The notes under the pieces were generated by a model that saw nothing but the letters and a program-made list of their open reading frames with translations, had not been told where the DNA came from and ran no database searches. Shown piece after piece: positions 10,048 to 45,109 of a DNA stretch of 64,000 nucleotides. A program made the translations under genes and the position numbers. The number at the start of each line of letters is the position of its first letter. Position 1 is the first letter of the stretch. Source of the stretch: Levilactobacillus angrenensis (GTDB taxonomy: Bacteria; Bacillota; Bacilli; Lactobacillales; Lactobacillaceae); assembly GCF_003946085.1 (NCBI RefSeq), contig NZ_RHOB01000001.1, forward strand, positions 62,001 to 126,000, written 5' to 3'.

Positions 10048-10235
10048 AGCGTCCTCTCCTTTTAAAACCGACCAGCTAGGCCCTGCCAGCTACAGTCGCG
10101 CACGACCAAACAACGTGACAACTAGCCGCTAACCTAATGCTATAACTCAGCTGATGCGCTCATTTTACTGAGACTGATTCACTAATGACCGGCCACCCTT
10201 AGGCCCACGTTGCGGCCATTTAAAGTCGACGCAAG

Positions 10236-10332
10236 CGGGTCTGGGACAAAACCGCCCAAACTCTTTTTGTGCACCAACTTTAAATGGCTGAAACCTCGCC
10301 AAAAGGCAGCTGGTTCCGCTTAAAACTGATAA
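10236..10332 (+). repeat. Intergenic repeat R1, copy B (left part)
   Basis: GGGTCTGGGACAAAA through GCAGCTGGTTCCGCTTAAAA matches copy A, then stops at the mobile element starting at 10333. Before it, 10201-10235 resembles the TTTAAA-TTGACGC part of copy C. Confidence 0.8.
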
Positions 10333-10965
10333 CTGAAGGTTGAAATTAGCATTAACCCGATAGTCCCTGGAACGACAGTGTTCTGTCCGCTAAAATTAGT
10401 GAAACCAGGAGCCTGCGGTAGCCAGAGATTCCACCTGCTATGGGGGACACCTCCAGCCTGAGGGGCGGTCTTCCGGTTCGCTTGAAAGCCCGGCAAAGTT
10501 CGCCAGGCTCCCAAGTCGCCCCACGCTGTAGGCTGAGAAAAGGCCTCAGCCAACACCGTCGACACAGCTGGCTCCACCTCTGGCTGCCTCCGGCGAGTTG
10601 ATGTTTATCAGCACCATTGTGAAGACTAGTCGCTAGATCAGCCGCCACCTGGGGCTAAGCCGACTTTTGCTGGCAAACACTCTTGTAGCCGAGAGTCCGC
10701 CAAATATGGGTTCAGCCGTGGGAGTTGCCTTAGCGGCGCGGTTTATGCCGCTAAGGCAACTGGCGTCTTTGAGACGCGGGCTTCGGCTCAAAGCGAGGCC
10801 GAGACCGCTTCTCAGGCTCGGTCCGGTCCGCCCACCGCGTTCCAACCCATAGTTGGCGGACGGTAGGCGGCCAGTTCGAACTACGAAGCTGTGAACGATC
10901 AATTTTTACATCATGAGTCGCATGGTGACAATATTTCTAGCTAATATTTATCTTTCAACCTTTAG
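10333..10965 (-). mobile_element. Element E, copy 1: non-autonomous element with structured core
   Basis: 633 bp bounded by imperfect 13-bp inverted repeats (CTGAAGGTTGAAA left, TTTCAACCTTTAG right) and flanked by direct CTGATAA(C). It is about 85% identical by eye to the copy at 16871-17510. There is no transposase. The core contains a 14-bp hairpin (10724-10737 with 10747-10760), GCGTCT-TTG-AGACGC (10763-10777), GGCTGAG/CTCAGCC (about 10530-10550) and a long-range 18-nt pairing (10695-10712 with 10844-10861). A minus-strand frame beginning GTG GAG CCA (about 10577), with GGAGG 9 nt upstream, stays open in all three copies but changes amino acids freely, so coding is doubtful. It interrupts an R1 repeat. 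The strand given is that of this frame. Confidence 0.8.
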
Positions 10966-10992
10966 CTGATAACCGCCTTTTGTCCCACTCTC
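10966..10992 (+). repeat. Intergenic repeat R1, copy B (right part)
   Basis: CTGATAACCGCCTTTTGTCCCACTC is represented here as the right end of R1, resuming after the inserted element; about 50 bp of R1 present in copies A and C is missing. Confidence 0.75.
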
Positions 10993-11125
10993 ATCTGAGC
11001 TGGCCGATTAAGTTACTTATTCAGGAATCACTCTCACTAATTTTATTATAGTTTTTATTTCTGCGGAATATCATTTTGGGGTTAAATTATTTTAACTATT
11101 CATGCATAAGGCCACGATTATTCTT

Positions 11126-16870: not shown

Positions 16871-17510
16871 CTGAAGGTTGAAAGTAGCATTAACGCAATA
16901 GTCCCTGGAACGACAGTGTTCTGGCCGCTAAAATTAGTGAAACCAGGAGCCTGTGTCAGCCAGAGATTCCGCCTGCTATGGGGGACACCTCCAGCCTGAG
17001 AAGCGGTCTTCCGGTTCGCTTGAAAGTCTGGCAAAGTTCGCCAGTCTCTCAAGTCGCCCCACGCTGTAGGCTGAGAAAAGACCTCAGCCAACACCGTCGA
17101 CACAGCTGGCTCCACCTCTGTCTGCCTCCGGCGAGTTGGCGATAATCAGCAATCTTGTCTTAATTAAAGACTAGTTGTCAAATCAGCCGTTACCTGGAGC
17201 TAAGCCAACTTTCGCTAGCACGTACACTTGTAGCCGAGAGTCCACCAAATATGGGTTCAGCCGTGGGAGTTGTCTAAGCGGCACGGTTCATGCCGCTTAG
17301 ACAACTGGCGTCTTTGAGACGCGATTTCCGGCTCAAAGCGAGGCCGAGACCGCTTCTCAGGCTCGGTCCGGTCCGCCCACCGCGTTCCAACCCATAGTTG
17401 GCGGACGGTAGGCGGCCAGTCCTCACTAGGATGCTATAAACGACTAATTTTTACGTCATCAGTCGCGTGGTGACAGTGCTTCTAGCTGATATTTATCTTT
17501 CAACCTTCAG
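16871..17510 (-). mobile_element. Element E, copy 2, with target-site duplication
   Basis: 640 bp with perfect 13-bp terminal inverted repeats (CTGAAGGTTGAAA/TTTCAACCTTCAG) and flanking GAAGTTAA at 16863-16870 and 17511-17518 (GAAGTTAAC if the first C is counted as target). It has the same structural core as copy 1. The main hairpin (17269-17282 with 17292-17305) differs from copy 1 at two positions on each arm, both compensated. No transposase; the open GTG frame (about 17115 to 16867) is present as in copy 1. Confidence 0.88.
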
Positions 17511-17539
17511 GAAGTTAACTAAAAAAACTAGCGTATGAC

Positions 17540-38774: not shown

Positions 38775-39197
38775 CTAAAGGTTGAAAGATGAAAATTAGC
38801 TAGAACCATTGTCACCATGCAACTGATGGTACAAAAATTAGTCGTTTACAGCTTCGTAGCGAGAACTGGTCGCCTACCGTCCGCCAAGCGTACTAGTAAC
38901 AATTGGTCTAGCCCCAGGTAGCGGCTGATTTGACAACTGTCTATAATTAACACAATGTCGCTGACAATCACCACCCCGCCGGAGGCAGCCAGGGTGGAGC
39001 CAGCTGTGGCGACGGTGTTGGCTGAGGTTTTGTCTCAGCCTACAGCGTGGGACGACTTTGGAGACTTGCGATTTTGGCAAGGCTTCAAAGCGAACCGGAA
39101 GCCCGTTTCTCAGGCTGGAGGTGTTCCCCATAGCAGGCGGAATCCCTGGCTGACGCAGGCTCCTGGTTTCGCTAATCTTAGTGGGCAAAACGGCGTT
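38775..39197 (+). mobile_element. Element E, copy 3 (inverted, truncated and internally deleted)
   Basis: Starts with CTAAAGGTTGAAAGAT, the right terminal repeat of element E, and runs in the opposite orientation to copies 1 and 2. About 225 bp of the structured core is missing between CGTCCGCCAA and TAGCCCCAGGT, and the last 65 or so bp with the other terminal repeat is absent. The hairpin GGCTGAG/CTCAGCC and the GTG frame region (VEPAV...) are retained. It lies between walJ and yycI. Confidence 0.8.
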
Positions 39198-39203
39198 ACA
39201 AAT

Positions 39204-39226
39204 AAAAAGACGGCTCACGGCCGCCT
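39204..39226 (-). terminator. Terminator of yycI
   Basis: AGGCGGC-CGTGA-GCCGTC followed by TTTTT on the minus strand. Confidence 0.85.
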
Positions 39227-45036: not shown

Positions 45037-45109
45037 GGGCAGTTAGCTCAGCTGGCAGAGCAACGGACTCTTAATCCGTGGGTCCAGGGTTCGATCCCCT
45101 GACTGCCCA
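45037..45109 (+). tRNA. tRNA-Lys (anticodon CTT)
   Basis: A 73-nt cloverleaf: acceptor GGGCAGT/ACTGCCC, D arm AGCTCAGCTGGCAGAGC, anticodon stem ACGGA-CTCTTAA-TCCGT with anticodon CTT, T arm with GGTTCGATCC, discriminator A. CCA is not encoded. No integrase or att-like duplication follows. Confidence 0.98.

Follow-up and report, generated by a model that had tools for sequence, protein, structure and literature searches.

REP/BIME sequences are dispersed extragenic palindromes, often found at the 3′ ends of genes, and each forms one hairpin a few dozen bases long. The integron attC site folds into one imperfect hairpin in which R and L boxes pair. In two studies, attC sites are described as acting in the form of folded bottom-strand DNA (PMC2727003, PMC6393395). 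A third study presents OTH-22-1, an attC-like motif that was found by an RNA search and was judged by its authors to be structured single-stranded DNA; this motif has RYYYAAC at the 5′ end and is spread over several phyla (PMC8632094).

The window analyzed here, a stretch of 64,000 nt from a Lactobacillaceae genome (assembly of 2.8 Mb in 62 contigs), contains an element, E, whose body consists of two diverged inverted copies, A (+) and B (−), of a branched unit of ~185 nt, U. Like REP/BIME, U is dispersed, extragenic, palindromic, present in many copies and often located at gene 3′ ends, but it is ~185 nt long and branched rather than a single short hairpin. With attC sites, U shares a fold that is kept while the stem sequences change and a placement behind genes; unlike them, it is branched, and its copies lie dispersed as single units or pairs instead of forming arrays. 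OTH-22-1 spans several phyla, whereas in the samples searched U stays within a single family. E itself resembles IS4-family MITEs: it has the same ends and duplication length as a full NF049925 insertion sequence (IS), no gene of its own, many copies and deletion derivatives. It differs from them in that its inside is better conserved than its ends and in that the two structured units it contains are found outside the MITE as well.

We conclude that U is a family-restricted, strongly selected folded unit that is undescribed as far as our literature searches reach; these searches, which covered few subscription journals, returned no description of E or U. The carrier E is ordinary in kind, with a plausible parent IS, and the interest of the locus rests on U and not on the MITE.

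Element E is a multicopy element with two conserved internal domains

The first-pass annotation of the window had described two full copies of E with terminal inverted repeats of 13 bp and direct flanking repeats. Both copies are present, at 633 and 640 bp (Table 1). Their ends, CTRAAGGTTGAAAG / CTTTCAACCTTYAG, show one mismatch in 13 bp in copy 1 and are perfect over 14 bp in copy 2, and the flanking repeats are CTGATAA and GAAGTTAA, respectively. The two copies belong to a larger set: the window contains a damaged third copy, and a search with copy 1 as the query found at least 40 copies in the genome (a lower bound, with 40 scored of 282 candidates), copy 1 included, the other 39 being 81–90% identical to it; one short fragment was found besides these. 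The end sequence CTRAAGGTTGAAAG has 83 exact occurrences, compared with none for a reversed control. Direct repeats at E copies are 7–8 bp long, with duplications at many copies, and Levilactobacillus suantsaiihabitans carries an E copy of 627 bp with an 8-bp duplication.

Table 1. Positions of element E, its ends and its U units within the window.
Feature	Position	Strand	Remarks
Element E, copy 1	10333–10965	+	633 bp
Copy 1, left terminal inverted repeat CTGAAGGTTGAAAT	10333–10346	+	
Copy 1, right terminal inverted repeat	10952–10965	−	reads CTAAAGGTTGAAAG on the minus strand
Copy 1, left target duplication CTGATAA	10326–10332		
Copy 1, right target duplication CTGATAA	10966–10972		
Unit U, copy A of copy 1	10408–10595	+	model R1, 181.5 bits; sequence in R1 seed
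Unit U, copy B of copy 1	10687–10871	−	model R1, 77.5 bits; domain noted in the first-pass annotation
Long-range stem closing B, 5′ arm	10695–10712	+	
Long-range stem closing B, 3′ arm	10844–10861	+	
Main covarying hairpin of B, GTTGCCTTAGCGGC / GCCGCTAAGGCAAC	10724–10760		
Element E, copy 2	16871–17510	+	640 bp; GAAGTTAA flanking both sides
Copy 2, direct repeats GAAGTTAA	16863–16870 and 17511–17518		
Unit A of copy 2	16946–17133	+	182.9 bits; in R1 seed as L005
Unit B of copy 2	17232–17416	−	71.5 bits
Element E, damaged third copy	38775–39225	−	one end at 38775–38788, other end unrecognizable; most of unit B gone; right limit guessed from the layout of copy 1
Unit A of damaged third copy	38977–39163	−	187.4 bits

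The only open reading frame of at least 90 amino acids within copy 1 encodes 98 amino acids and runs antisense to A. Judged from its frames, copy 1 has no transposase gene, and the earlier description of E as MITE-like holds. Shorter forms with both ends, 277–496 bp long and with matching 7–9-bp flanks, were found in this genome at 10 of 30 loci examined (L212, L214, L215, L218, L219, L221, L222, L231, L234 and L237), and those inspected in sequence retain only parts of A and B; a 190-bp short form (L209) had no matching flanks.

The layout of E runs from one end through U in the plus orientation (A), a linker of ~90 nt and U in the minus orientation (B) to the other end. We describe E as two opposed U units flanking a linker because the covariance model R1 (see below) finds A and B on opposite strands; the reverse complement of B matches A at 61% over 165 columns. 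Domain B is the structured core that had been noted earlier, and it is real, whereas the homologous and equally conserved domain A had been overlooked. Across 40 copies, the most conserved parts of E are A and B, not the ends. The majority fraction is at least 0.91 in 16 of the 18 20-site segments of A and B (range of 0.82–0.99) and 0.65–0.87 in the ends and linker, the values for the ends being lowered by gaps where some copies are truncated.

U is a branched unit under selection for base pairing

In the predicted fold of U, a long stem closes the unit, two hairpins sit on a branch, and there is a fourth hairpin besides. For R1, we aligned 17 units of several genera, including unit A of copy 1; the model's E-values are rough owing to a short calibration. 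In this alignment, which was made without structure, 93.1% of 768 cells hold standard pairs, compared with 33.8–44.5% in a slid control in which partners were moved by 1–3 columns. The covariation score is 0.443 (at most 0.105 when slid), and both sides change in 30 of 46 pairs. A larger alignment drew on 97 chosen sources and comprises the best 150 of their 163 matches. Among its 148 distinct sequences, which were fitted to R1 and so lean toward the model, 96.2% of 6721 pair cells are standard (35.1–42.9% when slid), the covariation score is 0.610 (at most 0.098 when slid) and both sides change in 42 of 46 pairs. The selection on base pairing that had been proposed for E is supported, with strong covariation in these wider alignments.

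Domain B shows the same behavior on its own. The substitutions reported in its main hairpin are compensatory, and the stem goes on covarying in 25 B-type units, with one pair reading GC in 8, UA in 7 and CG in 7. When these 25 units, taken from several genomes, were aligned without structure, both sides changed in 31 of 52 predicted pairs. The 18-nt long-range pairing described earlier is likewise present, with one mismatch.

Searches of Rfam 15 at curated scores gave no match for the E copies in the window and none in 18 related loci, and a permissive search of positions 10201–11100 returned a best E-value of 0.26. On these grounds, we rejected a known RNA family for U, and the Rfam check proposed in the first-pass annotation likewise ends with no family matching E. 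At curated scores, the window's only match to Rfam is a tRNA gene (45037–45109, +). Two Lactiplantibacillus genomes (G038 and G099; loci L052 and L059) carry several copies of a shorter and more diverged U variant of ~150–161 nt that seems to be without one hairpin.

U is matched in ten genera of the Lactobacillaceae

The genera Levilactobacillus, Lactiplantibacillus and Companilactobacillus comprise bacteria of food and the gut, and one genome, that of the window, has at least 146 R1 matches, some of them partial (a lower bound, with 150 scored of 863 candidates). R1 matches were found in 95 of 397 Lactobacillaceae genomes, representing 10 of 40 genera; these and the following order- and phylum-wide counts come from searches with stricter filters, in which weak matches are lost. 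Named carriers include Levilactobacillus, Companilactobacillus, Lactiplantibacillus and Secundilactobacillus, and the window's own genus has matches in 24 of 25 listed genomes, this one included. An order-wide sample yielded matches in 9 of 295 genomes, all nine Lactobacillaceae, and a phylum-wide sample in 1 of 299, namely this genome; neither sample contained an R1 match outside the Lactobacillaceae. Pattern matches in Labrys, Phyllobacterium and one IMG/VR contig had no R1 match and were taken as chance. Four genomes of one genus (g24; loci L046, L049, L050 and L051) have a U copy scoring 83–85 bits, and in two of them (L046 and L049) U lies between the same two neighbors, an NADH-dehydrogenase-like gene and a short membrane-protein gene.

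E shares its ends with an IS4-family insertion sequence

The first-pass annotation knew of no named family with the ends of E. An IS with matching ends does exist, namely a 1.56-kb IS4-family element (NCBIfam NF049925) that shares the 14-bp ends of E and has complete relatives of 1.55–1.59 kb elsewhere in the family. The sequence CTAAAGGTTGAAAG is perfect at both ends of three IS copies in one genome (G042, 1562 bp) and of one copy in another (G020, 1554 bp), and their transposases score 501 and 471 bits, respectively, against NF049925 (cut-off of 250). The G042 copies have duplications of 8, 7 and 6 bp, and the G020 copy has no visible duplication. A sister species (G373) carries an intact IS with E-type ends and the 8-bp repeat CTGATTAA on both sides. 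The outermost 20–23 bp of E match these ISs at 90–95%, whereas the remainder of E does not, and a search with R1 found no U in five IS loci.

Five of 29 genomes of the genus score above the NF049925 cut-off, and among these five, only G373 has intact E-type IS ends; the IS copy in G135 has altered ends and a stop codon, and the ISs of three congeners have CTGAAACTTGAAAG-type ends. In the window's own genome, the IS4-type transposase survives only as a remnant on contig C30, where a lone E-type end adjoins the last part of the transposase. This remnant scores 146 bits against NF049925 over part of the model and 20.9 bits against Pfam DDE_Tnp_1, under its cut-off of 23. Because the congeners mostly have altered or other ends and this genome has a remnant only, present activity is doubtful. 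In the C30 remnant (L225, about 2040–2700), a transposase-like frame with an internal stop follows, and the region resembles nested insertion debris.

Companilactobacillus huachuanensis carries the same ends and perfect 8-bp duplications around one U (312, 317 and 321 bp) or two U (590 bp); such duplications were seen at four element pairs, and several other pairs were without them. E is most likely a non-autonomous passenger of an NF049925-type IS, and we strongly infer from these sequences that the corresponding transposase would move it in trans.

Three E or U queries had no match in the plasmids searched, an absence that is suggestive only, and one E/U query had none in the phages searched; the IS itself matched 30 plasmids. 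A plasmid or phage origin of E or U was rejected, the queries having given only one 80-nt plasmid piece. This piece, in Limosilactobacillus reuteri plasmid NZ_CP030091.1 (L318:100–202), was found by a Companilactobacillus MITE query and scores 22.7 bits against R1; it is the only plasmid trace of U and lies, truncated, near an IS30-family gene. We also considered U pairs as the ends of a larger transposon and dropped the idea after viewing the flanks of 43 pairs by eye, which revealed no duplication at the unit edges.

U also occurs without the ends of E, often behind genes

The structure had been described as a property of E. It is found in E, but U is matched in ten genera and occurs without the ends of E in three of them, Companilactobacillus, Lactiplantibacillus and Levilactobacillus. 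For some copies in the window's own genome, the alignment with E starts at the edge of A and stops at that of B (79–545 and 79–548 of copy 2), and these copies have no recognizable ends. Many U copies in Companilactobacillus and Lactiplantibacillus start sharply within unrelated 5′ flanks and have no terminal repeat. One genome, G312, which shares a locus with L. fabifermentans contigs, offers a close view of such copies: 14 chosen U copies are 82–95% identical to one reference copy, and TT directly precedes U in 14 of 15 copies, the reference included. By eye, the 3′ flanks of these copies are partly related, extending into a terminator-like hairpin in most. A same-direction frame ends 21–94 nt before the aligned start of U in 11 of 11 units inspected, taking as the neighbor the longest nearby open reading frame without regard to homology.

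The same definition of a neighbor underlies our wider counts, which draw on a list of 158 units that omits weaker matches, including most B-type units; 144 of them were kept for counting convergent frames and 121 for direction and terminators. End-less U shares its direction with the longest upstream frame in 21 of 23 Lactiplantibacillus units, 14 of which lie within 60 nt of the stop codon, in 27 of 37 Levilactobacillus units and in 15 of 28 Companilactobacillus units. Outside Lactiplantibacillus, the rule of position is weak. U lies between convergent frames in 51 of 144 units. Terminator-like hairpins follow end-less U in 9 of 24 Lactiplantibacillus, 5 of 39 Levilactobacillus and 7 of 30 Companilactobacillus units, compared with 9.7% of random stretches, and precede it in 5 of 24 Lactiplantibacillus units; inspection by eye also revealed some U copies that sit behind a terminator and not before it.

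We looked for ties between U and particular genes and saw none among the neighbors of 188 units. In the first 40 clusters, the largest shared protein cluster has 16 members and belongs to a broad ATPase-like family, and several shared clusters represent one locus seen in two genomes.

Two genes, which we take from their translations to be leuS and argS, allow the same site to be compared among Lactiplantibacillus genomes. U matches lie behind leuS in 5 of 21 genomes, and in six others a short terminator region is all that occupies this position. Behind argS, U lies between stop codon and terminator in G312 and ~190 nt behind the matched gene end in G273; none was found between stop codon and terminator in 15 forward-oriented loci, and four other reversed loci had no U match. 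This presence and absence points to insertions that are recent on the scale of the genus; with divergence of ~15%, the exact insertion joint is unreadable at these sites. The interval behind leuS ranges from about 64 bp to more than 1 kb among species (L268–L288) and looks like an insertion hot spot. One of the 15 forward argS loci (G360; L338, about 1960–2300) has a MITE-like end, CTAAAGTTTGAAAG, and a U match (2137–2293) behind the terminator; this end may represent another variant of the ends in Lactiplantibacillus.

Proposed role of U and the nature of the folded molecule

Our preferred reading, to which we assign a probability of roughly 0.6, is that E is an IS4-type non-autonomous carrier of U and that U is an extragenic structured unit acting in a REP/BIME-like manner. 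An IS4-type carrier would have picked up U units and would spread them, with the IS4-family transposase moving E in trans, and U would act where transcription units end, as a folded nucleic acid to which a putative protein binds. The Y1 transposase PF01797, the RAYT of REP/BIME, has no match in this genome and is present in 20 of 29 genomes of the genus. If U acts at gene ends, termination or message turnover would be affected at many loci. The relevant folded molecule may be the message in its 3′ part, DNA in single-stranded form or both.

Wobble pairs bear directly on the choice between RNA and DNA. In the 150 aligned U sequences, G-U (128) and A-C (121) are equally rare among 6810 cells, whereas six tRNAs from the same loci have 5 G-U and no A-C in 133 cells, a small control in which the tRNA finder itself favors pairs. 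The claim of the first-pass annotation that E carries a structured non-coding RNA is thus unproven: an RNA role of U is not supported because G-U is no commoner than A-C, and the lack of a G-U preference in the gene-sense strand speaks against a role at the level of the message. Two pairs run through UA, UG and CG, with 46 and 26 UG cells (72 in total) and no CA, as in RNA. When these two are left out, A-C exceeds G-U in the gene-sense strand by 61 to 31 in 70 sequences of less than 85% identity, a ratio of 1.97 (bootstrap of 1.3–3.1, with sequences treated as independent), and the same tendency appears in A and in B of this genome. This hints weakly at tolerance of wobble in the strand opposite to the gene, a further likeness to integron attC. 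The wobble result makes U a case in which selected folds of DNA might be distinguished from selected folds of RNA.

Both the equal rarity of G-U and A-C overall and the excess of A-C once the two UG-rich pairs are left out would fit a tentative but substantial alternative, in which U is folded single-stranded or cruciform DNA that serves as an attC-like or REP-like site for a recombinase, a transposase or a nucleoid protein and lies behind genes because insertion there does little harm. The sharp 5′ edges of end-less copies are also consistent with a DNA site. The two UG-rich pairs argue the other way, as do the gene-sense direction of Lactiplantibacillus units (21/23 and 11/11) and the absence of a Y1 (HUH) transposase match in this genome.

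We give slightly less weight to a reading of U as an RNA domain that is transcribed within 3′ untranslated regions and has a role in termination, in message stability or as a released small RNA. Such a domain would account for the location of U behind stop codons in gene sense and for the related terminator-like hairpins seen by eye after several Lactiplantibacillus copies; it would also suit the conservation of unpaired positions, which make up 15 of the 39 columns that reach a conservation of at least 90% among 70 diverse U sequences. It is at odds with the lack of a G-U excess, with the lack of gene specificity among the neighbors of 188 units and with the U copies inside E, which are not tied to genes. 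An argument from A-rich loops in the gene-sense strand was dropped, as base counts show no A richness (unpaired U positions are 33% C, 25% A, 22% T and 20% G). Fold energies of the two strands are uninformative: the antisense strand is lower in 142 of 150 U sequences, and shuffled sequences reproduce most of that gap.

It is improbable, in our judgment, that U is a self-mobile structured element of ~185 nt, comparable to a bacterial SINE, that has no terminal repeats, enters gene 3′ ends in the direction of transcription and was captured by IS4-type MITEs. Folding would be required of both an RNA (or one DNA strand) and its complement in the intermediate, and this would account for wobble pairs being unfavored on either strand. 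If U does move by itself, it would be a structured mobile element of a kind not known to us in bacteria.

Very little probability attaches to the proposal that the arms of U are matched by template switching or gene conversion at palindromes and not by selection on the fold. Almost exclusive Watson–Crick pairing, with G-U unfavored, is what such a process might leave, and many copies per genome permit conversion; however, the conserved columns include the 15 unpaired ones, among them both partners of an A-A mismatch in the fourth hairpin (each conserved at 90% or more), and the stems of U vary in sequence while the branching layout stays. Among 37 near-complete E copies, changes private to a single copy affect 93 of 13425 site-copies (0.69%) in A and B versus 135 of 8672 (1.56%) in the linker and flanks, with the lower rate in U in 25 copies and the higher in 12. 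The U units in E copies are, then, either constrained or kept alike by mutual conversion, and conversion could explain part of their conservation.

The notion that E is a plain MITE whose structured parts are long imperfect subterminal repeats for transposase binding also has very low probability. In its favor, each of A and B is an inverted copy of the other, and in this genome neighboring units separated by less than 600 bp are convergent in 21 of 21 pairs. Against it, U is found by itself in other genera, with none of these ends; in the autonomous ISs examined, the ends are present and U is not; and deletion forms without most of A or B carry target duplications, although these forms could have been shortened after insertion.
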